Shown here piece by piece: positions 5,761-34,130 of a DNA stretch of 64,000 bases (position 1 is its first letter; the number at the start of each line of letters is the position of its first letter). Origin of the DNA: Robertkochia solimangrovi (lineage in GTDB: Bacteria; Bacteroidota; Bacteroidia; Flavobacteriales; Flavobacteriaceae); assembly GCF_007279655.1 (NCBI RefSeq), contig NZ_QKWN01000002.1:124001-188000 (forward strand), in the 5' to 3' direction. Below the pieces are notes generated by a model. The model did no database searches. It was not told the DNA's origin and saw only the letters and a list, made by a program, of their open reading frames with translations. The translations under genes and the position numbers were made by a program.

Positions 5761-6756
5761 TTATTCTTTTAAATGGATTCTTTTATCCCGATCACAGGTG
5801 ATGAACCCGGAATTCATATCCAGTTCGAGTTCGGCGACCTGAATACTGCTTCGACGTGTTTCTGGTATATCCAAACCTTCATTTTCTGGTATTCGTCCCG
5901 GATGTGTGAAGTAAAATACATAAGCTTTATTTGCTAATACCAACACATCCGGATGGCCACCTTTTACGCCATCATCGATACCTTTACCCGGTTCTTTCAG
6001 AATGTTATTTTCCTGTTTTGACCAGGTTGAAAGATCATCACTGCTGTACACTGATAATCCTCTCCAGCTGTCACAGATCATTCGGTATTTACCTTTCCAA
6101 TGAAAAACCACCGGACCTTCGCCTCGTTCGGCAACCGCTTTTTTACTTTTATTATTCCAAGTGTATAGGTCATTACTATCGGTATAATAGATCGATTTTC
6201 CATCATTCTCATTATTATAGAACATTCGCCACCCTCCCTCCGGTAAGGCAATTACATCGGCATCGATACATCGTTCAGAAGCCAGTTCCAGGGTACTTTG
6301 ATAAGTCCACTCAGTAAGATTGTCGCTGGTCAGATGAATAATCTGTCTGGGATGATACCAATCGGTGAAAATTCCAGGTACATAAGTGAGGTACATATGA
6401 AAGGTTCCATCATTTAAAATAACTTCCGGAGCCCAATACGTCGGCGATGTATCCGGTTTATAATCGATGTTGCAGATGCCTTGATAGGTCCAGTGATTTC
6501 CCCCGTCTTTTGAAACAGCGATACCGATATCCGTTCCATGCACCCAGCTCACCCCAGGAATGGAGTCCTGATTCGCTCGACGGTTGGTATAGAACATATA
6601 TAACAATTCATCATTAGGATTCCAAACAATACATGGATCTGCTGCGCCATCATAGACCGGGTCTCTGAATACAGGTTTATCAGCAAAATTGGTTTCATTC
6701 TGTGACCAGACCAGTTGAACGAATAAAAGAATGCAAAGACATCTGAATATTTTCAT
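5761..6756 (-). CDS. Secreted GH43-like glycoside hydrolase
   Basis: A 331-aa protein with a signal peptide (cleavage after about residue 18, ...VWSQ). It has repeated β-propeller blade motifs (FYTNR, YWAPEV, MYLTYVP, WRMFYN, KYRMICDSW). The GH43 triad is apparent: Asp40 in AADP, an Asp in CIDADV (165/167) and Glu213 in GEGPV. The family mostly removes α-L-arabinofuranose, β-xylose or galactose units. It directly abuts the 712-aa gene (no spacer) and closes the long rhamnose operon, so it probably trims side chains of the same rhamnose-containing polysaccharide. The exact linkage cannot be told, and an inactive or GH43-related propeller remains possible. Confidence 0.78.
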   Translation of the reverse strand: MKIFRCLCILLFVQLVWSQNETNFADKPVFRDPVYDGAADPCIVWNPNDELLYMFYTNRRANQDSIPGVSWVHGTDIGIAVSKDGGNHWTYQGICNIDYKPDTSPTYWAPEVILNDGTFHMYLTYVPGIFTDWYHPRQIIHLTSDNLTEWTYQSTLELASERCIDADVIALPEGGWRMFYNNENDGKSIYYTDSNDLYTWNNKSKKAVAERGEGPVVFHWKGKYRMICDSWRGLSVYSSDDLSTWSKQENNILKEPGKGIDDGVKGGHPDVLVLANKAYVFYFTHPGRIPENEGLDIPETRRSSIQVAELELDMNSGFITCDRDKRIHLKE

Positions 6757-8895
6757 TTAAAACATTTTTTGAAGGTTCTCCCATTTTACATTCCATGTAC
6801 CATCTTTTGGAAATCCCGGGTTTTCAATATCGTTGTCTTCCCACCCTGCACACATCAGGGCAATAGCGGTTAACAGGCCACCATTTCCGGGGAGATATAA
6901 GGTAAGACGCTCATCCTGAAAATTATGTCCGTTAGGAAGAAAAGTATTGGTTTGGATATCCATCAACAGCGCATCGATTGCTTTTTCAGGTTTACCTAAT
7001 CGGGTGGCGGTCATCGCCGTCATGGGAAAATCCCATCCCCAGGTTTCTTCCCAGGACCAGTTATTCCAAATCAATTCAAAAGTCTTAGCCATTAAAGTAT
7101 GATCGAGTTTTTGCGAATCCGGAAGCATTCCGAAGGCCCCTAAAACGGAAGGGTGATCAGTCATATATCGTGGATTTGTATACGAGTCCGGTGCGCTCTC
7201 AGCCGCTAAGTAAACACCATTCTGCTGAGGTAATGGGGCTAGTTTGTTGACTACTTCCTGCCATTGTTCCGGAACATGTTCACCGGATCTTTTTTTCCAT
7301 GCAATCGCGGTACGTAAAGCCCAATCCCAATATTGAAGTTCATAAGTTGGGTTGAAGGTTTCGATTGCCGGAAAGCGTTCCTGCGCTGGAATTAACCCCG
7401 GACCGAGATTGTAATATCCGGTCTTTTTATCATAAAAGGCATAGGATACCATAAAAGTTGCCGTTTGATAGACCAGGTCCCGAAACTGGTTTAGTATTTT
7501 CGGATCTTGATTCTTACGGTACATCAATTCTGCAAAGGTGATATAATGTGGTTGCTGCCAGATCAGAAAAGCTCCCACCGAAGAGGGGCTTTCATTTCCG
7601 AGGGGATCGGTCATCTTTTGCCATCGGACGCCTTCGTAACCTTGTCTCTGTGCAATTTTACGGGCATTTCCGGATACTTGTTCATACCATTTCAGGGAAG
7701 GTAGCAGAAGATTATGACGATTCCAGAGTGCGAAATGTACGCCATGCCACCAATGCATTTCCAAATGAGGTTTTCCAAACCAACTGTTAAAAGTGAGCCC
7801 GGTTTCCTGAGGGGGTTGCTTACCGGCACACTGAACGGAGGTCAGGTATTGAGACAAGACAACGCGTCTCTCCAGTTCTGCAGCTCTTGGATCTGTACAA
7901 TCGGAAAAATCGACTGCTCCACCATTCATCCAGAACTTTTCTTTTTCTCTTGCACTGTTCTCATGTAATTGTGTAAAGTCTGGAAGTGGCGCTTCCGTTT
8001 TGCGATCAGTAAACCTGCAGACCAATTCAAAATCCTTACTTTGAGGGATGATCTCAAAATAATGAGCTTCTTTTTCCCTTATTTTTGCAGTTCCCTTCCA
8101 TGCTACAGTCAGCTCATAGCTCAGGGAGTCCATGTGTCGTCTTATCCGGTATTTTTGAGAAGATATTTTTATCAGTTCTGAAGTATGATTTGCAGAACCG
8201 GTCCATTGAGTTCCCGTATCTTTCCAGGTTCCTGAAGGGAATGGAAATCTCAGGCGTAAACGAAGCTGATTCTTTGTGATCAACGGAGAAGAGATCTTAA
8301 TACCTATGATGTCCTCTTGCATACCGGCAATCGTTTCAACTGCCGTTGGGACCTCTTCAACACTAAATTGGCTCCGTATAGTACCCGTCCAGAGGTCTAA
8401 TGACTGATCGATGTGTTCCAGATCCTGTGGAGTGATAAGATCTCCATTCTCTTTATTGATTTCAAAACCTAGATTAGCAAGATGAACCCTATGTGGTTGT
8501 TCCCGATACCAATCGGAAGCTTCCCGTTTTCTTGGATCATCTTTAACCTGAACGGCGTAAGGAACGCTACGATCATGTTGGTCGTAATCCCTCAGAGTTT
8601 CATCGAATCTGTAATTGCTCGTATTGGGCTTTTGATCCCAACCCCAATCAGACTGTGTACCTAAAGGAATGCCTCCCTGATAATATTCGGGAAAGGTCTG
8701 CAAACCGGTAATATCGGTAGTAAATGCAAAATGGCCATTCCCCACGGTTAACGATGCCAGTGTGTCAGGAGAAGAAATATGAATTTGATGGCGGGTAACC
8801 AATGCTTTACGGTCGATCTCTTGAGCATGATTCATGAAAGGAATCAGAAATAAGTAAAGTATCGTATATTTTTTAATGCATGTAACGGTCTTCAT
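6757..8895 (-). CDS. Secreted (α/α)6-type putative glycosidase, family not recognised
   Basis: A 712-aa protein with a signal peptide ending near residue 24 (MNHAQ). The N-terminal third is β-rich with a motif resembling the entry of GH65/GH95-like proteins (VGNGHFAFTTDITGLQTFP). The C-terminal two thirds are Trp-rich and helical (HWWHGVHFALWNRH, GAFLIWQQPHYITFAELMYR, WDWALRTAIAWKK, ETWGWDFPMTAMTATRLG), as expected for a six-hairpin toroid. No certain catalytic pair was assigned, though Glu and Asp occur in the conserved-looking blocks. It sits 6 nt after the DUF4450-like gene and directly before the GH43-like gene in the rhamnose operon. A role in releasing rhamnose or a linked sugar is inferred from that position. 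Confidence 0.7.
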   Translation of the reverse strand: MKTVTCIKKYTILYLFLIPFMNHAQEIDRKALVTRHQIHISSPDTLASLTVGNGHFAFTTDITGLQTFPEYYQGGIPLGTQSDWGWDQKPNTSNYRFDETLRDYDQHDRSVPYAVQVKDDPRKREASDWYREQPHRVHLANLGFEINKENGDLITPQDLEHIDQSLDLWTGTIRSQFSVEEVPTAVETIAGMQEDIIGIKISSPLITKNQLRLRLRFPFPSGTWKDTGTQWTGSANHTSELIKISSQKYRIRRHMDSLSYELTVAWKGTAKIREKEAHYFEIIPQSKDFELVCRFTDRKTEAPLPDFTQLHENSAREKEKFWMNGGAVDFSDCTDPRAAELERRVVLSQYLTSVQCAGKQPPQETGLTFNSWFGKPHLEMHWWHGVHFALWNRHNLLLPSLKWYEQVSGNARKIAQRQGYEGVRWQKMTDPLGNESPSSVGAFLIWQQPHYITFAELMYRKNQDPKILNQFRDLVYQTATFMVSYAFYDKKTGYYNLGPGLIPAQERFPAIETFNPTYELQYWDWALRTAIAWKKRSGEHVPEQWQEVVNKLAPLPQQNGVYLAAESAPDSYTNPRYMTDHPSVLGAFGMLPDSQKLDHTLMAKTFELIWNNWSWEETWGWDFPMTAMTATRLGKPEKAIDALLMDIQTNTFLPNGHNFQDERLTLYLPGNGGLLTAIALMCAGWEDNDIENPGFPKDGTWNVKWENLQKMF

Positions 8896-8901
8896 AGAAA
8901 C

Positions 8902-11900
8902 TTATTTTAATAGTGTCAGACTCAGGAGTCCGATAATGACATCATTAGCCACCGGGGTGATCGTTAAATGTTCAAGGGTTTTATCAGGATGTAAGGGGAG
9001 GTCTAACAAGGTTGCTGCTCCCCCTTCAATAGCGTATTCCGTATATCCTTTGATGTAGGTATATTCCTGATCGGTTTGCAGCTCACCGGATGCCATTCGA
9101 ATCCTTACAGGCTTCTCTGCACCAGTCGTGAACGCAAAATCATCAATATAATAATCCTGTTCAATGGGCCACCAGTTCTCCGGGTTCTTCAAATCCAATA
9201 CTTCGGTGGAGCCATCGGTATAGGTAACTTTAATGATGCCGTTAACCATTCTGGTCTGCATGGGGTTTGTCGTACCTGTCATTAACAAGTAGATATGGCT
9301 GGCATTTCCGGATAAGGGTATTTGCAGGGAATCCGGAAAATTATTCCATAAAGAGGTGAGTGCAACGTTTTTGTCTGATTGAGAATTAAAATGAAACGGA
9401 ATCTTTTCTACATAGAAAGTATCTTCATTTAAAGAAGCTTTTTTCTTTAAACCGGAAATATCGATCTTCGGTTGGATCAACGGATAACACCAATTCCCAA
9501 TACCTTGCAGCGGTAACTGTAAGGTGGGAGATTCAGGTCGTGGTGCGAGATATTCCTGGTTGAAAATGTCTTCTAGATTTAAATTTAAGTAGCTATCTAA
9601 ATGAATACTCTTAAATATTTGATTATCAGTATTATAATCCTCTCGTGTTTTAAAGGTATATAATTGATTTTCGTGTCCGTTTATTTCAACTTCAAGGAGG
9701 TTGTTTCCGAAGGAAAGAGCCTGATCGTCATTTAATTTGAGGACTGACCTTCCAGGCGGAAAATCATGTTTAAACCGATATTTATGATTTAATACTACTG
9801 TTGCCTCAAGCGGCTCCGTTACATTATTTAATACCTGAATCCTGTTTTTTTCATTATCTGTAGCCGTGGAGAGAATTTCCAGCATCGGGGATATTTCCAG
9901 GTCTATAGGTTGCCACCAGCTGAAATTTCCTTGACTGACTTTCAGGAAAAAGGTTTTATGTCCGTTTACATTACGAAGCTTCCCTTCAAATTTTGAATGG
10001 TTCAGTTGAAAGTGGGCTAATACCTGTTGTGGATCGAAAACTTCAAGAAAAGATGTGTTTTCAGAAGGCAATGTGAAGACAGCACCCGGAAATAATTTCA
10101 GGTTTTGATCGTTATGGTTGAATCGATCACCTTTCCACTTGATGTTTATAGTATATTCTCTTTCATGGGGTATTGATAAGACTAGTTTTGGTTTTCCTAC
10201 GGCATCCTTTTCAATTTTCCAGGAGGTTATATATTTTTCATTAACCTTTATGAATTCAACTTCTGTGCGTTCTGGATTCAATTCGAGATTCAAATTCAAA
10301 GCTGACAAGAAATTATTTTTGATATAAAAGGAAGTGAGTTTTTCTTTTTTTTCGTACTTCACCGTAATATCAGGAATTGTGATTGCAGCATGATCCCAGG
10401 ATGAAGGGAAGCCTGGACTGATCGTCAGTGTCTGTGTAATCGCATCTGGCGTAATTCCGAATAAACCTTCCACTAAACTTCTTGCAGCCATACCGATTGG
10501 ATCTGCAAAATCCCGATAAAGTTCACCTCTCATGGCATCGTAAAAGGAAAGTTGCTGAAAGCCACCGGGAGAAGCTCCTAAATACATACTTTCGATAAGA
10601 CTGCTTTCCCAAAGTTGAAATGCTTTTTCAGGACGGTTTCCCTGCCAGTAGGCAAGAGCCATATGCAGGTTCTCCGCAAGAGCAACATTGTTCACCGACC
10701 AGGTATAGGGTTGCCAATTGGAAGTCGAAACCAAAAAGAGATCATTTCTTTTTAATCCGGTTGCCTGAATCGGAATATGGGGGATTTCATTATCAACATA
10801 GCGCAAAAGCTGGTATGCCTGAAAGTCATTCGGCAGTCCTTCATCAAGAGCATGATAGATGGTCCAGATACCCGGAGCGTTATGTAAGTTTTGGTGATTT
10901 AGAAGGTCTTTATACTCTGCATAGATCCCTTGCTCAGGAATCCAGAGCTCCTTTTCGATAGCCTTTTTTATACGTGAAGCTTCATTGGAAAATGCTGCTG
11001 CTCCGGGTAATCCTAGTTGATCTCCGATCGCAGCCATCATCGAATTCGCTGAATAATTGTATGCAGATGCATAGGTAACCGAACCTCCGGAATATTGTAA
11101 GGCATCGCTTGCCCAAATGGTTGCATAGGCGTCGTATAAAGCATTGTCATCTGAGTCAAAGTTTCGTTTCTCCCAATTGATATGACGTTTTATGTAGGGC
11201 CACATTATTTTGATAAAGGTGGTGTCTCCCGTCCATTTATAATGCCGTAACATTTGATTGAAGAACACCGAGTTCATATCATAATGATGGGCCACGGAGT
11301 TGTTGTTGGGACGACGACTTATATACCCGGAACTGAACATGGAATTTCCTATTTTCTCTTCCTGACGGGCAAAATTTTTAGCAGGATCGGGAACTACCGG
11401 GCCTGTCACAGGTTGTAGTACCTGAGAATTGGCATAACTGGTAAAATGGGTTTCTGCTCGTTCATGCCATCCTAAAGGATCAGCAACATAGGCTCCTCTC
11501 CAGGCATTCAGATGCATACGCCACGCTACAGATCCATGAAGATACGCAGGGTCTTCCCAAATCGCGTCTGCAGCAAGGGCAAGTGTACCTCCCAGGGTGT
11601 TCAAATAGTCATCCGGTGTATCCAGGATAACCCGATCTGAGATCTTCTGAATCTGGCCAACGGACTTTTGAAATGCGAATGCTATTTCTTCCTGGGATTT
11701 ATAAGTAACGGAATCTGTGGTGAATGCCCAATACATAGTATTTTTTGTAGTCTTAACGCTTCCGGTGATCACCGGAACAGTATCTTTGGAAGTCTTAAAA
11801 GCTATGATTGGATCTGTGATAGCATTTGCAGAGCCAATATGCGTGCTTCCCTCTGGAAAAGTCCCATAGATTTTTCGATTATTCCCGGTTTGCTTTTTAT

Positions 11901-12525
11901 TAGATTCAGATCCGTAATGAACTGTAAAATAATTTTTTTGGATTTCAAATTCATTGTTGATACAATATTCCGGTTGCAGATAGAAGACTGATTCCGGATC
12001 TGCACCGATATCTCCATCCCTGTGGAATTTTTTTCCGGAGGCTCCTCCATAGGTCCAGTAGATCTTTTCCTTTCCTGAAAGTCCGTTGCCTTCCAATTTG
12101 ACCAACAACCCTTCCTTTTCCGCAGAAGCGATAACTGTAAGAGACAGCATACCCTTGCCGAGGAGACTATCCGAAATTTTATAGGTCATCATACCCGGGG
12201 TATAAAGTGTGGCTACAGAATCACATGCAGTGATCCATTTTGATCGGTCGGCTATGGCTATTCCAAATTTTAAATTACCACCCATACCCGGCATATACAT
12301 AGCAAATTCCGGGAGGTCTCCGGCTTCCACGCGAAAGCCGGTATTTGTACCATACAGGGCACGATTAAATTTACGAGTGCCTTTAATCAGCTTAAAGCTT
12401 TTGCCTTGCGGAGCATAATGAAGCTCACGGATCGTATCATGCCATACGCTTTTTGATTGTCCTTTCACTGTAAAAGTGGTCAGGAAAAATGCGCTGAGAG
12501 TGATGATTGTAACGATCCTTTTCAA
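8902..12525 (-). CDS. DUF4450-like giant secreted glycosidase candidate
   Basis: A 1,207-aa protein with a signal peptide (residues 1–22, ending VKGQ). The N-terminal segment (RALYGTNTGFRVEAGDLPEF, then MYMPGMGGNLKFG) matches my recollection of the DUF4450 domain of Bacteroidota. Residues about 330–700 form a Trp-rich helical region (HLNAWRGAYVADPLGWHERA, WPYIKRHINWEKRNFDSDDN, NYSANSMMAAIGDQLG, SVNNVALAENLHMALAYWQG) typical of an (α/α)6 glycosidase barrel. The C-terminal 450 residues are β-rich accessory domains. It follows the permease gene by 70 nt within the rhamnose operon and probably acts on a rhamnose-containing oligosaccharide. Substrate and catalytic residues are unknown to me; the DUF4450 name is from memory and unchecked. 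Confidence 0.72.
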   Translation of the reverse strand: MKRIVTIITLSAFFLTTFTVKGQSKSVWHDTIRELHYAPQGKSFKLIKGTRKFNRALYGTNTGFRVEAGDLPEFAMYMPGMGGNLKFGIAIADRSKWITACDSVATLYTPGMMTYKISDSLLGKGMLSLTVIASAEKEGLLVKLEGNGLSGKEKIYWTYGGASGKKFHRDGDIGADPESVFYLQPEYCINNEFEIQKNYFTVHYGSESNKKQTGNNRKIYGTFPEGSTHIGSANAITDPIIAFKTSKDTVPVITGSVKTTKNTMYWAFTTDSVTYKSQEEIAFAFQKSVGQIQKISDRVILDTPDDYLNTLGGTLALAADAIWEDPAYLHGSVAWRMHLNAWRGAYVADPLGWHERAETHFTSYANSQVLQPVTGPVVPDPAKNFARQEEKIGNSMFSSGYISRRPNNNSVAHHYDMNSVFFNQMLRHYKWTGDTTFIKIMWPYIKRHINWEKRNFDSDDNALYDAYATIWASDALQYSGGSVTYASAYNYSANSMMAAIGDQLGLPGAAAFSNEASRIKKAIEKELWIPEQGIYAEYKDLLNHQNLHNAPGIWTIYHALDEGLPNDFQAYQLLRYVDNEIPHIPIQATGLKRNDLFLVSTSNWQPYTWSVNNVALAENLHMALAYWQGNRPEKAFQLWESSLIESMYLGASPGGFQQLSFYDAMRGELYRDFADPIGMAARSLVEGLFGITPDAITQTLTISPGFPSSWDHAAITIPDITVKYEKKEKLTSFYIKNNFLSALNLNLELNPERTEVEFIKVNEKYITSWKIEKDAVGKPKLVLSIPHEREYTINIKWKGDRFNHNDQNLKLFPGAVFTLPSENTSFLEVFDPQQVLAHFQLNHSKFEGKLRNVNGHKTFFLKVSQGNFSWWQPIDLEISPMLEILSTATDNEKNRIQVLNNVTEPLEATVVLNHKYRFKHDFPPGRSVLKLNDDQALSFGNNLLEVEINGHENQLYTFKTREDYNTDNQIFKSIHLDSYLNLNLEDIFNQEYLAPRPESPTLQLPLQGIGNWCYPLIQPKIDISGLKKKASLNEDTFYVEKIPFHFNSQSDKNVALTSLWNNFPDSLQIPLSGNASHIYLLMTGTTNPMQTRMVNGIIKVTYTDGSTEVLDLKNPENWWPIEQDYYIDDFAFTTGAEKPVRIRMASGELQTDQEYTYIKGYTEYAIEGGAATLLDLPLHPDKTLEHLTITPVANDVIIGLLSLTLLK

Positions 12526-12595: not shown

Positions 12596-14020
12596 TCAGG
12601 GATTAACCGAGATCAGTTTGCGTTGATAATAGCGGCTAAAGATGAGGTAAAGTGCCCCACAACATAGCCAGGTGGGCAAGGTGACGAACGAGAGAAAAAT
12701 ATCAAATTTAACAGAGATGAAATAGAATATTCCGAAACTCAAAGCCCAGGCACCTAATACTGCGAAATTGAAACTGAGCTGTGCCTTGTCTGCGTAGAAC
12801 GGATGGATTCCGGTCTTTTCGGCAAAATAATGATCGAATACGATAATTGCACCGATAGGAGAGAGGATGAATCCGTATAAGGCCACAAAATCTAAGAGTT
12901 TCATAGCAAATGCAGGGAATAAACCTGCGATAGTAGCCACCGTTCCGGCTAGGATAGTAACCCAGAAAGTTGAAGCCTTCGGAATAATTGCCTGAAATGC
13001 AAGTCCGGCTCTGTAAATAGTGGGATTAGCCGTTGTCCATCCGGCAAGGATCACCGCGATGATTCCAAAGACACCGATAGCATTATAGGCCAGTGGTCCG
13101 GGCGCAACGGTAGGTGCTTCTCCATTTGCCAGAAATTGCATGGCTTCCGGAGATTTCAAGTATACTGCGTAAAGCAATGCTGCAGCTATCCATGCCATAA
13201 AATGTCCCACATACATTCCGGCTGCAGAAGTCCATCCGATGGAAGCTTTCTTTGCAAATCGGAATACAGAGAGGTCAGACATACCAACATGCATGGCAGC
13301 ATTTGCAAACCAGGACCAGATAACCACATGCCAGAAGGTAAATTTTATCTGTCCGGGAAAGGGATCTGATCCTTCCCCCAGGATATTCCAGAAATCCGTA
13401 AAACTATGTACATCGAGTTGTTGTAAGGAAACGATTCCACAAACGAGAAATGCCAGTACGATCACGGGTGAAACCCAGTTTGCAACCTTTGATACGGTAT
13501 CATAACCCTTAGCTGCAACGATTGAGATGATCGCCCCAATAATAAGTACGATAATGATCCAGGTTAATCCATTTGGCATGGTATCGGTAAGTTTCGGCAT
13601 TTCCATATCAAAGGGTATACCTACAGCAGTTGCTGAAACGGTGATCATCGAACCCGCAAGGAAACAGAATAACACACCATTAGCGAGATTATAAACGGTC
13701 ACCAGTTTTTTACCACAGATCTTTTCCAGTTGGTAATACAAGGTTAAACGATATTTAACCGCGATCTCTGCCGTCAGGAATCTCCAGCTTAAGACTGCAA
13801 GAATGTTTCCAAGGAGGAGTCCGATTATGAGGTCGAAAGCACTCACTCCAGCCGTCAGAAATAAAGGGCCGATCACAAATTCTGTTCCTGCAGCATGTTC
13901 TCCGGCATACATACCCAGAAAGCTTTTCCATCCTTTAAGGTTGGAAGAGGGTACAGGTTCGCGTTCGAATTCTCCACCTGCGATGTGTTCTATATCTTCG
14001 TCAATGTTATATTGTGTCAT
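12596..14020 (-). CDS. NCS1-type (cytosine-permease-like) transporter in rhamnose operon
   Basis: A 474-aa integral membrane protein with about 12 hydrophobic helices. The N-terminal region before helix 1 and the first helix pair (FLGMYAGEHAAGTEFVIGPL, then LLLGNILAVLSWRFLTAEIA) resemble the nucleobase:cation symporter-1 fold. The helix motif AGWTTANPTIYRAGLAFQAI resembles the NCS1 signature around TM8. NCS1 members usually carry cytosine, uracil, allantoin or thiamine. Here the gene lies 28 nt after lldD and inside the rhamnose operon, and no FucP- or RhaT-like permease is seen in the locus. Transport of L-rhamnose or a related product is therefore inferred from context. There is no purine or pyrimidine gene nearby. 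Confidence 0.8.
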   Translation of the reverse strand: MTQYNIDEDIEHIAGGEFEREPVPSSNLKGWKSFLGMYAGEHAAGTEFVIGPLFLTAGVSAFDLIIGLLLGNILAVLSWRFLTAEIAVKYRLTLYYQLEKICGKKLVTVYNLANGVLFCFLAGSMITVSATAVGIPFDMEMPKLTDTMPNGLTWIIIVLIIGAIISIVAAKGYDTVSKVANWVSPVIVLAFLVCGIVSLQQLDVHSFTDFWNILGEGSDPFPGQIKFTFWHVVIWSWFANAAMHVGMSDLSVFRFAKKASIGWTSAAGMYVGHFMAWIAAALLYAVYLKSPEAMQFLANGEAPTVAPGPLAYNAIGVFGIIAVILAGWTTANPTIYRAGLAFQAIIPKASTFWVTILAGTVATIAGLFPAFAMKLLDFVALYGFILSPIGAIIVFDHYFAEKTGIHPFYADKAQLSFNFAVLGAWALSFGIFYFISVKFDIFLSFVTLPTWLCCGALYLIFSRYYQRKLISVNP

Positions 14021-14048: not shown

Positions 14049-15194
14049 TTATATCAAATGGGCCGGAAGATCTTCGGGCGATTCGCAGCACAGCTGGTCT
14101 AATACTTGTTTCAATTGCACCTTAAGCATGGAAATGGTATGGTCACCGCCCTGATTACCCATGGCAGCTACCCCGTACATAAAGGATCTTCCCATAAAGG
14201 TGAATTTGGCGCCTTTGGCTAATGCTCTTGCTATATCGGGACCGGAGCGTAAACCACTGTCCATCATTATTTCGAGTTGATTCTTATATTTTTCAGCGAT
14301 AGTGCTTAAAGAGGCGATGGAGGACTCTCCGGCATCCAACTGCCTGCCACCATGGTTCGATACGATAATACCGTCGAAACCGAGTTCTACAGCCATAGCG
14401 GCATCAGCTTCTGAGGCTACCCCTTTTAATACTAGTTTTCCTTTCCACTGATCCCGTATCGGTTTTATTCTTTCAGCATTCAATCGCCCGGAGAACGTCT
14501 GATCCATAAATTTACCAAGTTGCTGCAGGTCGAGACCTTCAGGCATATAGGGTACGAGATTCTCAAAGTTAGGTTGGCCGTGTTTCAGGGTTTCTATTGC
14601 CCATCCGGGCTTTCCAAGAATCTGAAGAATATTTCGTAGGGTCATTTTTGGTGGTAGCGCTAATCCGTTTCGGAAATCTCTGGGACGGTAGCCGAAAGTG
14701 GGTACATCACAAAGCAATACCAGTACAGGACAACCTGCTATGGCTGCGCGATTGATAATATCCTTTCGTATATGATCTTCTGACGGATTATATAGCTGAA
14801 ACCAGGCATTTCCTTCGGTAAGTTCACTTATGCGCTCAATATTACTTGTGGTTACGGTACTCAGAATGAATGGAATATTATGTTTAAATGCTGCCTTCGC
14901 CAGTATTTCCGGAGAATTGGGCCACATAAGTCCTTGAAGTCCAACCGGGGCGATACCAAAGGGAGCATCATAGGTCTTTCCGAATAGCGATACCTGAGTG
15001 GTTGAATCCTTATAGTTTTTCAGGTAACGCGGCTCCAATTGAATTTCTCTGATATCGGCGGTATTGCGGTAAAGATTGACATCTTCATTACATCCTCCGT
15101 CAAGGTATTCAAAGGCGAAGCGTGGTATTCTGGACTTGGCCCGAATACGCAGGTCATCGACAGAGGGATATTTATAATTGAATTGTAAAGCCAT
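14049..15194 (-). CDS. lldD: FMN-dependent L-lactate dehydrogenase / α-hydroxy-acid oxidase
   Basis: A 381-aa cytoplasmic or membrane-peripheral flavoenzyme of the α-hydroxy-acid oxidase family. The start region FAFEYLDGGCNED, the FMN-binding PFGIAPVGLQGL, the ISTVTTSNIE-type loop and the signature SNHGGRQLD with catalytic His281 are all present. The phosphate-binding segment MDSGLRSGPDIARALAKGA also fits. The reaction is oxidation of L-lactate to pyruvate. It lies 6 nt after the kinase gene, which makes sense because rhamnose breakdown by RhaEW yields L-lactate. Length matches the family (about 380 aa). Another 2-hydroxy acid could be the substrate, but the rhamnose context favours lactate. 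Confidence 0.88.
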   Translation of the reverse strand: MALQFNYKYPSVDDLRIRAKSRIPRFAFEYLDGGCNEDVNLYRNTADIREIQLEPRYLKNYKDSTTQVSLFGKTYDAPFGIAPVGLQGLMWPNSPEILAKAAFKHNIPFILSTVTTSNIERISELTEGNAWFQLYNPSEDHIRKDIINRAAIAGCPVLVLLCDVPTFGYRPRDFRNGLALPPKMTLRNILQILGKPGWAIETLKHGQPNFENLVPYMPEGLDLQQLGKFMDQTFSGRLNAERIKPIRDQWKGKLVLKGVASEADAAMAVELGFDGIIVSNHGGRQLDAGESSIASLSTIAEKYKNQLEIMMDSGLRSGPDIARALAKGAKFTFMGRSFMYGVAAMGNQGGDHTISMLKVQLKQVLDQLCCESPEDLPAHLI

Positions 15195-15200
15195 AGGTCA

Positions 15201-16574
15201 TCATTTAATGATAAGCGGTACATGTTTTTTTAATGCATAATTCTCTTTGAGAAATTTCGAATTCAGTTCCGTATCGGAAATACAGATGGCGGCACCCAGT
15301 GCCGAGCCAAGTGAAGCATCTGTAGTGCGAAGCTCCATATCTCTTAAATAGTGGGTAAGCAGATTGATATATACGTCGTTCTTTGTGAATCCGCCATCGA
15401 CATAAAGATTCTTAAAATGCATTCCTCCGCTGGCAATCGTAATACTCTTAACCTGAAGCAGCACCAGTTCGATCATCAGTTGATGGTAAGCTTCCTCATA
15501 GGTGGGAAAATTTATAGTGTGGTACGGCATTTCCGTTTGATTCTCCAGATATTCCCACCGGAACATCGGTTTAAGATCTTTACTCAACCTGTGAAATAAA
15601 TTTTCGTCGAAGAGAATCTGACGGTGATAATCTTCAGAAACATGGTATAATTGATCGAGTTTCCTGACTTGTAGTTGATATTCATTGCCTAGAAATAATC
15701 GTGAAGCTTTTACTGCTTTTCCATTGATTCGCATATAAAAGATACAATTACTTTTGATATCCTCCTCAGATAGGGGCGTAGTTGCAAATGGATTCAGAGA
15801 AATGCTCCATGTTCCCGTTGATACCAGAATAAAGGGTTCCTTTAAACTCCGTACATAGGGAAGTAAGGCAGAAGAACTGTCATGTATACCCACACCGATC
15901 TTGATCCTTTTTCCATTGTAGTTCATATTGATACTGGTTTCCGTAGAAACTATCGGGGGTAAAATCGTATGTAAGCCTTCCTGATAGACCCAGGAGTGGT
16001 AATCTTTTTTTTCATAATCCCATAGGGAGGTATGACATCCGATACTGGTGTATTCGCTGAGGGGTATACCTGTAAAGATAAAACTGAGATATTGTGGTAA
16101 ATGCAGTGAATAGCGTATCCTTTTAAAGACATCAGGTTGTGCGTATTTGAGCCAGAATAATTGTATTCCGGAATTGAGCATACCTTCATTTGATGAACCG
16201 GTACGTGCGCAAAAATCATCAACCGGACCATATTTTTCAAAGAACTTTTCAATTACCCATTTTGGAATTGGTTTCGTGTAATTATAAATGGGAGTAATTG
16301 CTTCTCCATTCTCATCCAGATGAACAAAACTGGCTCCGTAAGATGAAAAATTTATAGCTTTAATTTCATATTCTTTGGCTTCCAGGATTTCGTGAAACAG
16401 GTCCTTTAGCCATTGCTGAAGATTATCCAAATCCTCAGTGGGGTGGCCGTCTTCATCGACAATAGGATCGAATTTTGTATATTCTCTGTATACTTCCTGA
16501 AAATTACTGTCGAACAGAAAGAATTTTTTATTGGTTTTACCGATATCGAAAACTGCAGTAACTTCCTTTCTCAT
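15201..16574 (-). CDS. rhaB: FGGY-family carbohydrate kinase, probable L-rhamnulokinase
   Basis: A 457-aa FGGY kinase. The first phosphate loop AVFDIGKTNKKFFLFD, a substrate-site segment with RTGSSNEGMLNSGIQLFWLKY, the ATPase-fold segment FILVSTGTWSISLNPF and a C-terminal IASGGMHFKNLYVDGGFTKND are visible. It would phosphorylate L-rhamnulose to L-rhamnulose-1-phosphate in the cytoplasm. It starts 9 nt after rhaI and is followed 6 nt later by lldD, so it is co-transcribed. The sequence is not a close match to the enterobacterial RhaB pattern, and FGGY specificity (rhamnulose against fuculose or xylulose) is hard to read. The isomerase and aldolase neighbours decide the call. Confidence 0.85.
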   Translation of the reverse strand: MRKEVTAVFDIGKTNKKFFLFDSNFQEVYREYTKFDPIVDEDGHPTEDLDNLQQWLKDLFHEILEAKEYEIKAINFSSYGASFVHLDENGEAITPIYNYTKPIPKWVIEKFFEKYGPVDDFCARTGSSNEGMLNSGIQLFWLKYAQPDVFKRIRYSLHLPQYLSFIFTGIPLSEYTSIGCHTSLWDYEKKDYHSWVYQEGLHTILPPIVSTETSINMNYNGKRIKIGVGIHDSSSALLPYVRSLKEPFILVSTGTWSISLNPFATTPLSEEDIKSNCIFYMRINGKAVKASRLFLGNEYQLQVRKLDQLYHVSEDYHRQILFDENLFHRLSKDLKPMFRWEYLENQTEMPYHTINFPTYEEAYHQLMIELVLLQVKSITIASGGMHFKNLYVDGGFTKNDVYINLLTHYLRDMELRTTDASLGSALGAAICISDTELNSKFLKENYALKKHVPLIIK

Positions 16575-16583
16575 GCTTGTATC

Positions 16584-17864
16584 TTATAAGCCCGTAGCTA
16601 CTGTGTTTCTTCCTCTTTCACCGATGAGCTGTTCTCTGATCTTAAGTTCACGATAAGCAAATAACGGATTTAAAGCCCCGCCCATTCTACTTCTGGCTTC
16701 TTTTACCAAAGGCCTGACATCAGTGTTATAGGCATCCTGAAGAATTTCCTGGCATTTGACCACATCGTGGGCAAGTTGCGCTTCACGAAGCAAATGCTGA
16801 TCGATCAGTAGCGCCTTGGCATAGGTACTGATAATGGCTTCCAGAGATTGTATCAGGTCTTCAAGCGGATCTTTAAGATTATGGCTGGCATCGATCATCC
16901 AGGACAATTCCGGATTTTGAGGATTATGCTCCATTCCATAGACCAGTTCATTGAAAATCAGGAACAATGCATACGGTTTGATGGAGCCAACGGTAAGATC
17001 GTCATCTCCGTATTTGCTGTCATTAAAATGAAAGCCACCGAGTTTGCCTTTCCACATTAAAGTTGATACGATCTGTTCGATATTGGTGTTAGGCAAATGA
17101 TGTCCGAGATCAACCAGTGTATAGGCCTTTTCACCACAGGCATTAGCCAGCATGAATGAGGTGCCCCAGTCCTGAATCACAGTACTATAGAATGAGGGTT
17201 CATAGGGTTTGTATTCAATGAACATCTTCCAATCATCGGGTAAAACACTGTATATGGATTTAAGACTATCCTCTGTATGCTGCAGTGAACGCTGGAAATT
17301 GGATTGCCCTGGAAACGAAGCTCCGTCTGCTAACCAGACGGTGATACTCTTAGAACCCAGTTGTTCTCCGATGCTGATCACTTCTTTATTGTGCGCAATT
17401 GCCTGCTCACGAACCTCTTTGTCTGAATTACAAAGGGATCCATATTTATAGGTATGATTAGCTCCGGGCTGATCCTGAAAAGTGTTTGAATTTACAGCAT
17501 CAAATTTGATATCAAGACTAGCGGCCAATTCACGGATCGCTTTATAATCTTCCGGTATATCCCAGGGAATATGAAGTGAAACTGCACCGGCACTTTTGGT
17601 AAGACCATGAATAAGCCCTACATCTTCGATCTTTTCCGTTAAGGATGAGGGTTCTCCAAAGAATGAGAAACGTCCGAAACGCGTTCCCCCGGCACCCAGG
17701 GCCCAACTCGGAATCGCAACCTGAAAATCGGATAGCTTTTTGATAATTTCATTCGAATCGACCCCTTTTTTGTTCAGGGCAGATGCCAGGAAATTATACT
17801 GATCCTGATGGGTATCTCTATCGATTGCGTTAATTTGTTGTAGTTTTTCAGTAGTGATCTTCAT
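16584..17864 (-). CDS. rhaI: L-rhamnose isomerase, RhaI (Pseudomonas-type) family
   Basis: A 426-aa TIM-barrel sugar isomerase. Its metal and substrate segments resemble the Pseudomonas stutzeri-type L-rhamnose isomerase rather than enterobacterial RhaA: WALGAGGTRFGRF, SLHIPWD, TVWLADGASFPGQSNF, MFIEYKPYEPSFYSTVIQDW, LVDLGHHLPNTNIEQ and GGFHFNDSKYGDDDL. It converts L-rhamnose to L-rhamnulose in the cytoplasm with divalent metal. It lies 111 nt downstream of rhaEW with a strong hairpin in the gap, and 9 nt upstream of the kinase gene. Length is normal for the family (about 420–430 aa). Confidence 0.92.
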   Translation of the reverse strand: MKITTEKLQQINAIDRDTHQDQYNFLASALNKKGVDSNEIIKKLSDFQVAIPSWALGAGGTRFGRFSFFGEPSSLTEKIEDVGLIHGLTKSAGAVSLHIPWDIPEDYKAIRELAASLDIKFDAVNSNTFQDQPGANHTYKYGSLCNSDKEVREQAIAHNKEVISIGEQLGSKSITVWLADGASFPGQSNFQRSLQHTEDSLKSIYSVLPDDWKMFIEYKPYEPSFYSTVIQDWGTSFMLANACGEKAYTLVDLGHHLPNTNIEQIVSTLMWKGKLGGFHFNDSKYGDDDLTVGSIKPYALFLIFNELVYGMEHNPQNPELSWMIDASHNLKDPLEDLIQSLEAIISTYAKALLIDQHLLREAQLAHDVVKCQEILQDAYNTDVRPLVKEARSRMGGALNPLFAYRELKIREQLIGERGRNTVATGL

Positions 17865-17914
17865 AGTTATTTTTTGGTTGGTAAAGGCGAGAGGTGGTCA
17901 AATATACTTAAAAC

Positions 17915-17950
17915 AAATCTCCATAGGTTGAGACAACCTATGGAAGATTT
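17915..17950 (-). promoter_or_regulatory. Strong hairpin between rhaEW and rhaI
   Basis: A perfect 10-bp inverted repeat, CCATAGGTTG at 17921–17930 and CAACCTATGG at 17934–17943 with a 3-nt loop. Outer arms AAATCT/AGATTT (17915–17920 and 17945–17950) extend it with one bulged base at 17944. On the minus strand it follows the rhaEW stop and is followed by a short U-rich run. It could be a leaky terminator, an RNA-processing or stability hairpin that sets rhaEW:rhaI ratios, or an operator palindrome. No promoter element was found after it. Confidence 0.6.
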
Positions 17951-17975
17951 AACTTAACTACCTAACAACATTACA

Positions 17976-20072
17976 CTATCTTACAAATGCATTTGCCATT
18001 CCTCCGTCAACATTGATAATGTTACCGGTGGATTTGTCCAGGATCGCAACCAGTGCAAAGACACCATTAGCGATATCATCCGGATATATTATTTCATTCA
18101 GGAGGTTTCTTTTGGCATAATGTGCTGGTAATTCTTCCACACTGATTCCATAGGCTTTGGCTCTGCCTTCTGCCCATTCGCCTTCCCAAATCTTACTTCC
18201 TATAATAACCCCGTCAGGGTTTACGGTATTTACTCGGATCTTAGCATCCGCAAGCTCCGCTGCCAGTAACCTTGACATATGTTGCTGGGCTGCCTTCGCA
18301 GTTCCATATCCAACATTGTTCGGACCGGAAACGAGTCCGTTCTTACTGGCGATGTTTACGATATTTCCTCCAAGTCCTTGTTTTTTCATAATCGAAACAC
18401 CGTGTTGCGCCATCAGAAACTGTCCTTTCACCAATACATCCTGTAAAAGGTTCCAATCGGCAAGAGTAGTATCTTCCAATGATTTTGAAATGGCGAGTCC
18501 GGCGGAATGGATCACGATATCAACGCCTCCAAAATTCATCACGGCTTCTGCATAGGCCTTCACTATCGATTCTTCTTTAGTGACATCGCAGATAGCGCCA
18601 GCGACCTGGTCGGCCTTATAGGTCTTAAGCGCGTCGTTTAACGCATTTTCACTTATATCCGTAAGGAGTACATTAGCTCCTTCAGCTACGAGTTTATCAG
18701 CGATCGCCTTTCCGATCCCACCGGCAGCTCCGGTAACGACAGCCACTTTTCGTGATAACGGTTGTTCTGCGGGCATGCGCTGAAGTTTTGCCTCTTCCAG
18801 TAACCAGTATTCAATATCGAAGGCTTCCTGTCTAGGAAGTGAGGTGTACTCGGTTATGGCTTCCGCTCCACGCATTACATTGATCGCATTCACGTAGAAC
18901 TCACTGGCAACTCTGGCGGTCTGTTTATTTTTTGCAAAGGAGAACATTCCGATTCCGGGAAAGATGATGATTACCGGATTAGGATCCCTTATTGCTGGGC
19001 TGTTGTCATGTTTGCAGCTTTCATAATAATCTGCATATTCTTTGCGGTATTGCAGAAAGGCAGGTTCCAGTTTCTTTAATACTGTATCTGCATCACTCAA
19101 ATCTTCTGATTTATCAAGTTCCAGAACTAAAGGCTGGATCTTTGTACGCAGAAAGTGATCCGGACAGGAAGTTCCCATCGGGGCCAGCTTTATAAGATCA
19201 TAGCTGTTGATATATTCAAGTACGGTTTCACTATCGGTAAAATGTCCTATCATTGGCTTTTCCGAAGAACAGAGTCCGCGTAACAGCGGCATAATCTGAG
19301 CGGCTTTTTCAATGCGTTGGGCAGGGGCTAAACTACTAACTTTTTTACCGCCAAATACCTGTCCGTTTGCTTTGATTTTCTTCTCGATATATGCTGAGGC
19401 CATTTCGATTACCTCAAGACTATTCATATAGCACTCATAGGAGGTGTCCCCCCAGGTAAAGAGACCATGACTTCCCAGAACGATTCCGCGTATCCCGGGA
19501 TTTTCAAGTAAGCATTTTTCCAATTGGAGTCCGAGATCAAATCCCGGTCTTTGCCAGGGTACCCAGCCCATGGTGTCACCCCAGATCTCCTTGGTTATCT
19601 TTTCACTGTCCTCAGCTGCAGCTACAGCGATAAGTGCATCGGGATGAAGGTGATCAATATGTTTGAAGGGGAGTAAACCGTGAAGTGGTGTATCGATCGA
19701 TGGAGCCCGGCTGTCAAGATCATAGATACAATGATTAAATAAACCAACCATACGATCTTCGTCATGAAGTCCTTTATATACGTTCTTAAGATTTCTCAAA
19801 CGCTCCGTATATAATCCTGCAATGCCTGCTCTGGTAAGTGTACCGATATCACCACCTGAACCTTTAATCCACATAACTTCCACATCTTCATTGGTCAAAG
19901 GATCGGCTTCAATGGTTTTACAGCTGGTGTTACCACCCCCGTAATTGGTGATTCTCAAGTCTGCTCCCAGTATATTGGAACGATATAAAAATAAGGCCAC
20001 TTCATCGTTCGCCAAATCCGCAGCTTTTTTCTCATCCCAAAGGTAATTTACGTACTTAAAGGTTTTATCCAT
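17976..20072 (-). CDS. rhaEW: Bifunctional rhamnulose-1-phosphate aldolase / lactaldehyde dehydrogenase
   Basis: A 698-aa fusion. The N-terminal class II aldolase domain has NYGGGNTSCK (residues 43–52), IKGSGGDIGTL and a zinc-site cluster FKHIDHLHPD with His138, His141 and His143. A linker follows, then a C-terminal short-chain dehydrogenase from residue 443 with TGAAGGIG (447–454), Ser576, Tyr589 and Lys593. The architecture and length are those of RhaEW/YuxG proteins. These split L-rhamnulose-1-phosphate into DHAP and L-lactaldehyde and oxidise the latter to L-lactate, which the downstream LldD can use. It is the first gene of the long minus-strand operon, preceded by a strong promoter/operator at 20098–20142. 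The ATG at 20072 lies 26 nt after the −7 box. Confidence 0.93.
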   Translation of the reverse strand: MDKTFKYVNYLWDEKKAADLANDEVALFLYRSNILGADLRITNYGGGNTSCKTIEADPLTNEDVEVMWIKGSGGDIGTLTRAGIAGLYTERLRNLKNVYKGLHDEDRMVGLFNHCIYDLDSRAPSIDTPLHGLLPFKHIDHLHPDALIAVAAAEDSEKITKEIWGDTMGWVPWQRPGFDLGLQLEKCLLENPGIRGIVLGSHGLFTWGDTSYECYMNSLEVIEMASAYIEKKIKANGQVFGGKKVSSLAPAQRIEKAAQIMPLLRGLCSSEKPMIGHFTDSETVLEYINSYDLIKLAPMGTSCPDHFLRTKIQPLVLELDKSEDLSDADTVLKKLEPAFLQYRKEYADYYESCKHDNSPAIRDPNPVIIIFPGIGMFSFAKNKQTARVASEFYVNAINVMRGAEAITEYTSLPRQEAFDIEYWLLEEAKLQRMPAEQPLSRKVAVVTGAAGGIGKAIADKLVAEGANVLLTDISENALNDALKTYKADQVAGAICDVTKEESIVKAYAEAVMNFGGVDIVIHSAGLAISKSLEDTTLADWNLLQDVLVKGQFLMAQHGVSIMKKQGLGGNIVNIASKNGLVSGPNNVGYGTAKAAQQHMSRLLAAELADAKIRVNTVNPDGVIIGSKIWEGEWAEGRAKAYGISVEELPAHYAKRNLLNEIIYPDDIANGVFALVAILDKSTGNIINVDGGMANAFVR

Positions 20073-20242: not shown

Positions 20243-21304
20243 ATGAATTATGCTTTGAAACAACCTGAAATTACAATTCAGATTAATGAGAATTCGAGGG
20301 TGCCGAAATATAAGCAGATTGTCGATTCGATCATAGGTGATATTAGCAATGGAACACTACAAATAGGACAGAAGATACCATCGATCAATGAATTGAGTGA
20401 AACTTGTTACTTGTCCCGGGATACCGTTGAAAAGGCTTATAAGCATCTCAAGGAAAAAAAGGTAATCGTTTCCGTTAAGGGTAAGGGATATTATACGGCC
20501 AAGACCGACCTGATCTCTAAGCTGAATATTTTTTTCCTGGTAAATAAACCCAGTTCCTACAAAATGATGATCTACAATTCCTTTGTGAATGCCCTTGGGG
20601 TGAATGCACATGTAAATATGTTCATCTATCATTGTGATGAGTCACTCTTCATAAGAACCCTGGAGAAGAATCTTGGTGCTTATGATAATTATGTGATCAT
20701 GCCGCATTTCAGAACGGAAGAGCAGGGCCATGCGAGTTATACCGATGCGGTATTGAAGGTAATCTCAAAGATACCAAAGGATAAACTGATCGTTCTTGAT
20801 AATGCCAAACCTTTTGTGGATGGGAATTACAGTTCAATCTATCAGGATTTCCAGGAAGATATCTATAACGCCCTCAAGGAGGGTCTTGACCGGCTTCAGA
20901 AGTATGATAAGATCATATTGGTTTATCCCGATAAATCGGCGCATCCATATCCAAAACGAATTTTACATGGCTTCAGACAATTTTGTGTTGAATTCGAATT
21001 TGATTTTGAAGTGCTTGATGAAATCTATGATGATATGGAATTTCAGAGTCGTGATATCTATATCACCATTGAGGAAATGGATCTGGTAAATCTGGTCCGA
21101 CAGGTACGCAAAAAAAATTTGGTACTGGGGCAGGACGTAGGAATTATATCTTATAATGACACACCCTTAAAGGAACTTCTCGGGATTACCGTAATCAGTA
21201 CCGACTTTAAGGCAATGGGTGAACTAGCTGCCTATATGTTGTTGAAAAACAAGAAAGAAAGAATAAGAAATAATTTCAGATATATCGAGCGTAACTCGCT
21301 CTGA
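20243..21304 (+). CDS. GntR-family regulator with periplasmic-binding-protein-like effector domain
   Basis: A 353-aa regulator. Residues about 17–88 form a GntR winged helix (RVPKYKQIVDSIIGDI, GQKIPSINELSE, SRDTVEKAYKHLKEK, then a wing VSVKGKGYY). Residues about 95–345 form a LacI/PBP1-like sugar-binding domain (FFLVNKP, IVLDNAKPF, IILVYPDKSAHPYP, GQDVGIISYNDTPLKELLGI, TDFKAMGELAAYMLL). The overall plan is that of AraR-type GntR regulators. It is divergent from the rhaEW operon with a 170-nt shared gap, and the next gene downstream starts the CE12–GH2 operon, which has its own promoter. It is the best local candidate for reading rhamnose and controlling the five-promoter regulon, but the direct-repeat form of the element is unusual for GntR proteins, so this is inference. 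Confidence 0.85.
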   Translation: MNYALKQPEITIQINENSRVPKYKQIVDSIIGDISNGTLQIGQKIPSINELSETCYLSRDTVEKAYKHLKEKKVIVSVKGKGYYTAKTDLISKLNIFFLVNKPSSYKMMIYNSFVNALGVNAHVNMFIYHCDESLFIRTLEKNLGAYDNYVIMPHFRTEEQGHASYTDAVLKVISKIPKDKLIVLDNAKPFVDGNYSSIYQDFQEDIYNALKEGLDRLQKYDKIILVYPDKSAHPYPKRILHGFRQFCVEFEFDFEVLDEIYDDMEFQSRDIYITIEEMDLVNLVRQVRKKNLVLGQDVGIISYNDTPLKELLGITVISTDFKAMGELAAYMLLKNKKERIRNNFRYIERNSL

Positions 21305-21313
21305 CATCGTTAT

Positions 21314-21358
21314 CATCATAGTACAGGATGGTATATACTTTCGGGTTCGATAATTTAG
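21314..21358 (+). promoter_or_regulatory. Promoter with direct-repeat operator of the CE12–GH2–CE12–GH115 operon
   Basis: The 18-nt element CATCATAGTACAGGATGG (21314–21331) is followed after exactly 19 nt by TAATTTAG (21351–21358), one mismatch from TAnnTTTG. The box ends 27 nt before the ATG at 21385. Spacing agrees with the rhaEW and susC promoters, which supports both the promoter and this start codon. Confidence 0.72.
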
Positions 21359-21384
21359 TTGACCTTAAATGTATATACTATCTG

Positions 21385-25559: not shown

Positions 25560-25573
25560 TTAAAATAAATGAT

Positions 25574-27118: not shown

Positions 27119-27138
27119 GCTTAACAATAACAGGTAAT

Positions 27139-29991: not shown

Positions 29992-30012
29992 GCATAGGAT
30001 TGCTGGATCAGA

Positions 30013-30327
30013 TCAATCCATATGAAACACCTCGATTAGCGGTTTTTCGATGGGAGAATGATCAGGATTCGTTTCCATGATATCCGCCATATAAGCCCAC
30101 CATTTTTTCACCAGTGGATGATCGGGTATTGCAGCCGGATCGAAGTCCGATGATAGTTTTTGTACCGCAAATAGTATAAGAGTCTCCGGGTCGAGATAGA
30201 TCGTATAATCAGAAATACCATGTTCTGAAAGTAACGCACTGAGTTCGGGCCATATTTGATCATGTCTTCTTTTGTATTCTTCCTCAAATCCAGCCTTGAG
30301 TTTCATGGTGAATGCGTGCTTTGTCAT
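30013..30327 (-). CDS. rhaM: L-rhamnose mutarotase
   Basis: A 104-aa protein of the RhaM family (α/β-barrel, usual length about 104). Visible family features are AFTMKLKAGFEEEYKRRHD with the conserved His, the WPEL segment, GISDYTIYLDPETLILFAV and the C-terminal WWAYMADIMETNPD. It interconverts α- and β-L-rhamnopyranose, feeding the correct anomer to RhaI. It lies 23 nt downstream of a GH28 gene and probably shares its promoter at 31742–31786. It thereby links extracellular hydrolysis with cytoplasmic rhamnose use. Confidence 0.93.
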   Translation of the reverse strand: MTKHAFTMKLKAGFEEEYKRRHDQIWPELSALLSEHGISDYTIYLDPETLILFAVQKLSSDFDPAAIPDHPLVKKWWAYMADIMETNPDHSPIEKPLIEVFHMD

Positions 30328-30350
30328 AATTGTACCAGTTATTTGTATCG

Positions 30351-31718: not shown

Positions 31719-31741
31719 TAATGATATGTTTTAAAGATGTT

Positions 31742-31786
31742 TAATAGTACTAAGAATATTCAGGCTCCATATCCTGTACTTACCTG
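31742..31786 (-). promoter_or_regulatory. Probable direct-repeat operator and promoter of the GH28–rhaM operon
   Basis: Minus-strand element CAGGTAAGTACAGGATAT (31786 to 31769), 12 of 18 matches to the consensus and strongest in TACAGGATA. At the usual 19-nt spacing stands TACTATTA (31749 to 31742), a weak −7 box. The element ends 51 nt before the ATG at 31718, compared with 53, 53 and 54 nt at three other sites. It is the weakest promoter of the set but is positioned correctly. Confidence 0.55.
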
Positions 31787-31791
31787 ATACA

Positions 31792-31882: not shown

Positions 31883-31892
31883 TAATGAATGT

Positions 31893-31929: not shown

Positions 31930-31983
31930 GAGTATGAAGAACTATAAAGTTCTGTGGATCAAATTAACTAAAGATATTCAGTT

Positions 31984-34083: not shown

Positions 34084-34130
34084 ATTCAATGAGTTTAAAG
34101 TGTATCTTTTATTTTCGATGAAACTTTCAT

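Follow-up and report, generated by a model that had tools for sequence, protein, structure and literature searches.

The window analysed here is a stretch of 64,000 nucleotides (nt) from Robertkochia solimangrovi (assembly GCF_007279655.1, contig NZ_QKWN01000002.1, positions 124,001 to 188,000), in which two adjoining genes lie inside a rhamnose operon on the minus strand, between a permease gene and a gene resembling glycoside hydrolase (GH) family 43. One encodes a protein of 712 amino acids, which we call F712, and the other a protein of 1207 amino acids carrying a DUF4450 domain (Table 1). An earlier note on this DNA had singled out these two open reading frames (ORFs) with spacers of 6 and 0 nt, and the coordinates were confirmed: along the minus strand, 70 nt separate the permease gene from the DUF4450 gene, 6 nt the latter from F712, and 0 nt F712 from the GH43-like gene. 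Upstream of the TTG of the 1207-residue ORF, no strong ribosome site was seen. The setting is one of rhamnogalacturonan I (RG-I) use coupled to rhamnose catabolism.

Searched as a single sequence, F712 returned zero Pfam families at E 0.001, zero NCBIfam families at E 0.01 and no solved structure up to E 1, and a search of viral contigs gave zero matches. A profile of 65 sequences (alignment A3, the window's F712 and 64 of the 80 loci described below, 16 having been omitted by eye as near copies) retrieved GH65 chains, namely kojibiose phosphorylase (E 2.5e-5), glucosylglycerol phosphorylase (2.5e-4) and human PGGHG (3.4e-3). In the AlphaFold2 model (mean predicted local distance difference test, pLDDT, 92.6) a beta-sandwich is followed by a linker and an (alpha/alpha)6 barrel. 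Comparison with known folds using VIA-align 2 ranks GH65 7fe3 first with Z 34.9 (root-mean-square deviation 2.8, 582 residues aligned), followed by PGGHG (32.3), kojibiose phosphorylase (29.3), GH95 7kmq (28.9) and GH139 (27.5 for 9hmb, 26.0 for 9hyq), identities in the GH65, GH95 and GH139 rows being 12-16%. By model and fold comparison, F712 has the architecture of the GH65/GH95 type. Profile-versus-profile comparison, with one pair each, gave E 1.6e-9 for GH95, 1.8e-9 for hydrolase-type GH65 (six sequences, the short L127 having been dropped) and just 0.0035 for GH65 phosphorylases; as a yardstick, GH65 hydrolases find GH65 phosphorylases at E 1.1e-43 and GH95 at 3e-21. F712 is about equidistant from GH65 and GH95 and lies further out than these two lie from each other. 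The Pfam model of GH65 (PF03632, cut-off 27 bits) gave no match to the window's F712 at E 0.1 and weak matches to 19 of 65 relatives (best E 8.2e-6); its scores at two F712 places, 20.8 and 22.1 bits, stay under the cut-off.

Residue conservation was counted over 72 sequences, A3 plus seven from plasmid records. For the GH65 alpha-1,2-glucosidase FjGH65A (7fe3), the active-site part of PMC8626586 gives Glu472 as acid, Glu616 as base, Trp343, Asp344, Lys538 and Gln539 in the -1 pocket, and Trp391, Glu392 and Thr407 at +1. The mapping of these residues onto our alignment is supported by the GH65 representative L122, in which the matching FjGH65A motifs are displaced by 22 or 20 residues. F712 shares with FjGH65A the domain order, the (alpha/alpha)6 fold and a Glu at the acid position, E506, whereas overall identity is 15% and Glu616, Asp344 and the pair Trp391/Glu392 are not retained. 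The base position holds Gln in 68, Lys in three and Asp in one of the 72 sequences; Asp344 has become His and Trp391 has become Lys (K427) in every one of them, and Gln539 is Thr in 54, the alignment being gapped there. With the GH95 alpha-L-fucosidases and galactosidases (7kmq, 2eac), F712 has in common the fold, a similar GNGG-type motif, one His (H581, invariant in 72/72) and W621, whose counterpart in the GH95 alignment is the Trp of TGW (19 of 23 GH95 sequences have W there), a residue whose spacing suggests a stacking role. This Trp belongs to a motif, TWGWD, that is invariant throughout the 72. Where GH95 has an Asp to activate its Asn base (AfcA D766; Asp in 21 of 23 GH95 sequences), F712 carries Pro, again without exception. 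The portion of PMC12282258 concerned with GH95 and GH139 describes such a Trp as stacking the -1 sugar and Asn as the proposed base, and states that GH139 is without the GH95 Asp, another Asp being proposed in its place. The GH139 2-O-methyl-fucosidase BT0984 (9hyq), which according to the same portion acts on a pectin, resembles F712 in its fold and likewise has no GH95 Asp, but its target is rhamnogalacturonan II (RG-II); the comparison of F712 with GH139 was one of folds. Because the GH65 acid is kept, while the GH65 base and the activating Asp of GH95 are both replaced, we place F712 beside GH65, GH95 and GH139 and not within any one of them. From this pattern we infer that F712 is an alpha-glycosidase of the inverting type, its acid being E506 and its -1 pocket arranged round W621 as in GH95 and GH139. 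Its base would be neither the GH65 Glu nor the Asn-Asp pair of GH95; candidates are D622, E364 and E379, of which D622, directly following W621 in the chain, may serve as the base or its activator.

For the 1207-residue protein, the label DUF4450 was borne out by a PF14614 match of 186.1 bits against a cut-off of 27. In its AlphaFold2 model (residues 23-1207, mean pLDDT 84.0) a beta-sandwich at the N-terminus leads into an (alpha/alpha)6 barrel, and long beta domains make up the C-terminal part, so that the (alpha/alpha)6-like architecture proposed earlier holds for both proteins. A close relationship between the two was discarded at hhalign E 0.37. The barrel reaches Z 25.7 with GH78, 24.8 with GH94 and 24.5 with GH116, a spread of about one unit, and Foldseek puts GH94 on top; hhalign of the family gives E 5.9e-7 for GH116, 3.3e-6 for GH94 and 2.7e-5 for GH78. 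PF04685 (GH116) matches the window protein with 32.9 bits (cut-off 26.3), over a stretch of only 133 of 361 profile positions. Among 39 DUF4450 relatives at E <= 0.1, PF04685 is found in 37, a mannosylglycerate-hydrolase-like model in 31 and the GH78 barrel in 23. PF17389 (GH78, cut-off 24.5) scored 31.4 bits in the genome search and was absent from the hmmscan of the window protein at E 0.001 and 0.1. In comparison with GH116, GH94 and GH78, the protein shares the barrel fold and a PF04685 match over cut-off, but differs in its unassigned N-terminal DUF4450 domain and about 500 extra C-terminal residues. Residues 23-292 as a single sequence had no match among solved structures up to E 10; the family profile matches 4e0e_A, a 178-residue 'putative uncharacterized protein' (E 4.5e-6) that is presumably a DUF4450 protein of Bacteroides thetaiotaomicron. 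Alignment to GH116 pairs a single Asp, D474, and did not locate the nucleophile. D474 is invariant in alignment A4 (the window and 38 of 47 DUF4450 ORFs >= 1000 aa) and may act as an acid, the GH116 Asp opposite it being what we take to be the acid of that family. As modelled, the protein has a barrel of glycosidase type, and no single family stands out as the nearest.

A scan of named genomes returned at least 594 confirmed F712 relatives, and locus counts were taken from the best 80 of 594, all of them Bacteroidota by title and nearest relatives of the window's F712. In 39 of these 80 loci F712 and a DUF4450 gene are immediate neighbours on one strand (34 in the order of the window, five reversed), and in 48 a DUF4450 gene falls inside the available flank; the gene next downstream belongs to polysaccharide lyase family 11 (PL11) in 17 and to GH105 in 11. 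When 296 genomes of the phylum were surveyed, the window's own included, DUF4450 was found in ten and F712 in 19, and all ten DUF4450 genomes carry F712 (Fisher 7.6e-14, a value that is optimistic, as is the p value given below, since the genomes share descent and are not independent). PL11 passes the cut-off in seven of the ten DUF4450 genomes, GH106 is present in ten of ten and in 16 of the 19 F712 genomes, and ten of the 14 genomes with PL11 over cut-off have F712. In Galbibacter orientalis (L011) the gene order of the window from RhaI to the GH43-like gene is kept, with a GH28-like gene inserted and PL11 nearby. F712 relatives extend to Alphaproteobacteria and Actinomycetota, where annotation, if present, reads 'hypothetical protein'; nine plasmid-collection records hold relatives with 35-40% identity. 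Pectate lyase adjoins F712 in the three Asticcacaulis records examined, out of four, and a DUF4450 gene is in the stretch shown for two.

The surroundings of F712 were compared with a background of 40 evenly spaced 20-kb stretches from four F712-bearing genomes, using the 57 full loci in which both 10-kb flanks are present; these are all near relatives of the window protein, and the other 23 of the 80, all under 22 kb long, were omitted. A match to PL11, GH28, GH105, GH106 or PL22 was found within 10 kb in 50 of the 57 loci against two of the 40 background stretches (p 2e-17), one of which (L262) ends about 12.6 kb from the F712 of the same genome and may be the same region. GH28 baits occur in 30 of the 57, and a rhamnose gene lies within 10 kb in 18, compared with none of the 40. 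The neighbours (PL11, GH105, GH28, GH106 and an exo-galactosidase resembling BT4156) favour RG-I over RG-II. The breakdown of RG-I has been described for a single gut Bacteroides, and the pathway part of PMC8002723 places BT4156, the GH106 BT4145 and several GH28 enzymes in it. This B. thetaiotaomicron pathway (BT4145-BT4183) has GH106, GH28, GH105 and a BT4156-type galactosidase in common with the setting of F712, and PL11 in many relatives, but that part of PMC8002723 mentions no counterpart of F712 or of the DUF4450 protein.

Computation directly gave the folds and invariant residues, together with the conserved pairing of the two genes and their RG-I context; from these we infer the activity and substrate of both proteins. 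With modest confidence, we favour the view that F712 and the DUF4450 protein are exo-acting glycoside hydrolases, each of a family with no assigned activity, whose periplasmic role is to trim RG-I oligosaccharides ahead of sugar uptake; N-terminal hydrophobic stretches, read by eye, suggest that both are secreted. The substrate of F712 is most likely a residue of RG-I left by GH106, GH28, GH105 and galactosidases, such as an alpha-linked L-sugar or another stub. On the same material the DUF4450 protein would act as a further glycosidase, one of GH116, GH94 or GH78 type. A lyase or hydrolase would cut RG-I, and the oligosaccharides would reach the periplasm via SusC/SusD, where esterases and galactosidases would clean them. 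F712 and its partner might then clear away residues standing in the way of GH105, GH106 and GH28; the rhamnose set free would be imported by a permease, perhaps the NCS1-like protein, and be consumed by RhaI, the kinase and the RhaD-dehydrogenase. The idea of candidate glycosidases without a named activity, tied to rhamnose and rhamnogalacturonan, survives in that pairing and pectin context hold far beyond this genome. Release of rhamnose by the pair found no support in the form originally proposed: the window has its own GH106, and a role of the pair as GH106 replacement was rejected as unlikely in view of the GH106 genes of the DUF4450 and F712 genomes. The presence of GH106 in every DUF4450 genome suggests that the pair does something beyond it. 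For F712 no clear membership in a characterised family was found, and invariant acids exist, two points that bear on the tests proposed in the earlier note. GH142, another comparison it had named, appeared in no result list, no search aimed at that family having been made.

Several observations weigh against this interpretation. The restriction of the 80 loci to close Bacteroidota relatives and the shared descent of the genomes both soften the statistics given above. Nine of the 19 F712 genomes are without DUF4450, and the F712 stretches from eight of these nine contain a pectin bait in three cases and none in five (G204, G273, G274, G304, G312). The set from which these stretches come has 20 members, four of them companions without F712. 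In G273, F712 is preceded by araB, araD, araA, epimerase-like and symporter-like genes, an SGNH gene intervening (Pfam was used to test the first and third of the series, the others being read by eye). Two annotated actinobacterial records show no pectin gene near F712, and the Paenarthrobacter F712 begins without a visible signal sequence. In view of these loci, F712 may have a substrate that is also found in places other than RG-I. A clear PL11 is missing from the window's genome, whose PL11-domain match is sub-threshold at just 25.1 bits. Lastly, the GH95 acid (Glu566 of AfcA) is aligned not exactly with E506 but with A504, two residues before it, an offset that we take for a local shift of the alignment.

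Other explanations were weighed against the same evidence. The pair might attack the backbone itself, the DUF4450 protein as alpha-L-rhamnosidase and F712 as alpha-1,2-galacturonidase, alternately removing RG-I residues as GH106 and GH28 do. Two linked enzymes would match two alternating linkages, the top Z of the DUF4450 barrel belongs to a GH78 rhamnosidase, the only GH78 match in the window's genome is the weak one of the DUF4450 gene itself, and the invariant K427 could bind a uronate; we nonetheless regard this as unlikely, given the frequencies of GH106 and GH28 stated above and since the lead of GH78 over GH94 and GH116 amounts to a tie. We are somewhat more doubtful still that F712 and its GH43-like neighbours strip arabinan or galactan stubs from RG-I. 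A second GH43-like family adjoins in eight of 80 loci and falls within the available flank in 16, F712 follows the arabinose genes in G273, and in Paenarthrobacter the next gene is nearest to an alpha-L-arabinopyranosidase model (848.7 bits, the cut-off of 1300 not being reached). Arabinose genes are, however, rare near F712, with AraB in one of 80 loci and AraA and AraD in none, and the AraB count rules out F712 as a general member of arabinose operons.

That F712 is an alpha-glucosidase or phosphorylase of GH65 type, acting on something unconnected with RG-I, would fit its closest fold and best profile match, but we consider this very unlikely given the replaced base, the His and Lys at the -1 Asp and +1 Trp positions, the poor profile match to GH65 phosphorylases and the pectin context. 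Nor is there much to be said for one or both proteins being non-catalytic glycan-binding proteins on a glycosidase scaffold, which we judge highly improbable. The known base positions are lost in F712, and a GH139 homolog without the acid was inactive on the substrates tried, as far as the GH139 portion of PMC12282258 goes; still, invariance of E506 and TWGWD in 72/72 exceeds what one would expect binding alone to require.

The pair is real and conserved, has no assignment in any library searched, and is a known kind of enzyme in families that are nameless there. Among the titles and abstract openings listed for new rhamnogalacturonan families or GH65/GH95 neighbours, none describes either protein, and the term 'DUF4450' occurs in no paper of the library searched; CAZy may contain an assignment. 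A bolder version of our preferred reading, offered tentatively, is that F712 founds a new GH family neighbouring GH65, GH95 and GH139, one whose base has shifted to the Asp adjoining the -1 Trp (TWGWD), and that together with the DUF4450 family it removes an RG-I linkage lacking a known enzyme, the accepted RG-I pathway then being incomplete outside the gut. With two further enzyme-like families beside RG-I genes in dozens of Bacteroidota loci, part of the bacterial pectin toolkit seems unexplained. Knowing what the two proteins do could fill in a missing RG-I step, assign a function to several hundred genes or more, and show whether members of the GH65/GH95/GH139 superfamily can differ in the place of their catalytic base; short of a relocated base or a new RG-I linkage, no surprise of principle is to be expected.

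Table 1. Features of the window, with positions counted from its first nucleotide.
Feature	Position	Strand	Basis or remark
F712 gene, 712 aa, ATG start	6757..8895	-	ORF list; candidate inverting exo-alpha-glycosidase
F712 N-terminal beta-sandwich, residues 38-296	8008..8784	-	model
F712 (alpha/alpha)6 barrel, residues 337-683	6847..7887	-	model
E506, proposed general acid	7378..7380	-	E in 72/72; on GH65 acid (6/6 GH65 sequences)
W621-D622, proposed -1 Trp and candidate base or base activator	7030..7035	-	both 72/72
E364, alternative candidate base	7804..7806	-	72/72
E379, alternative candidate base	7759..7761	-	72/72
K427 at GH65 +1 Trp position, possible contact to +1 acid sugar	7615..7617	-	72/72
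DUF4450 gene, 1207 aa, TTG start	8902..12525	-	ORF list; glycosidase-type protein
PF14614 DUF4450 domain, residues 78-270	11716..12294	-	Pfam
DUF4450 protein (alpha/alpha)6 barrel, residues 278-688	10462..11694	-	model (model numbering + 22)
D474 (D452 in A4)	11104..11106	-	invariant in A4; aligned with GH116 Asp
DUF4450 protein C-terminal beta domains, residues 691-1207	8905..10455	-	model; beyond about model residue 775 barely covered by the fold comparison
GH43-like gene, 0 nt after F712	5761..6756	-	PF04616, 40.2 bits
NCS1-like permease, candidate rhamnose importer	12596..14020	-	TIGR00800
Rhamnose catabolism block	14049..20072	-	Pfam/NCBIfam matches
FMN-dependent dehydrogenase	14049..15194	-	
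Rhamnulokinase-like kinase	15201..16574	-	
RhaI	16584..17864	-	
RhaD-dehydrogenase	17976..20072	-	
Pectin region: GntR, SGNH x2, GH2 (BT4156-like), GH115, GH28 x2, SusD, SusC, PL22, GH106, GH88/105, esterase-GH43	20243..46222		family matches

The permease upstream of the pair had been described as rhamnose permease-type, which did not hold up: its match to TIGR00800 (NCS1) scores 55.5 bits, far under the cut-off of 353.1, and RhaT is ruled out for it, a search of the window's whole genome for RhaT having given zero matches. Because RhaT has no match in this genome, the NCS1-like protein, from a family known for nucleobases, is a candidate rhamnose importer. A RhaT-type gene is present in ten relative loci (a sequence cluster of which one representative was scanned). 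The permease has an 83% identical counterpart in Galbibacter orientalis.

The GntR gene is divergent from the rhamnose operon, and the other genes of the pectin region lie beyond it. Among them, the GH2 protein is nearest to the model of the BT4156 exo-beta-1,4-galactosidase (1258.4 bits, the cut-off of 1700 not being reached), and at 44420-46222 (+) a pectin-acetylesterase-like domain is fused to a GH43-like propeller. Elsewhere in the 64 kb, zero tRNA genes were found, and a 1096-residue ORF at 154-3444 (+) is without a convincing Pfam match, the best being a fatty acid desaturase at E 0.024.

Some further families recur near F712 in other genomes. One of about 420 residues was seen in nine loci, including L040:8699-9961; for the one member scanned, no Pfam family came up even at E 1. 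In five loci (L020, L021, L024, L057, L089) F712 has a sulfatase family nearby, assigned to PF00884 from a single scanned member; sulfatases are odd for plant pectin and perhaps indicate a sulfated rhamnose-rich glycan. In G273 (L289), a 3-keto-disaccharide hydrolase (PF06439) adjoins F712, and a relative of that hydrolase is found in G204 (L290).

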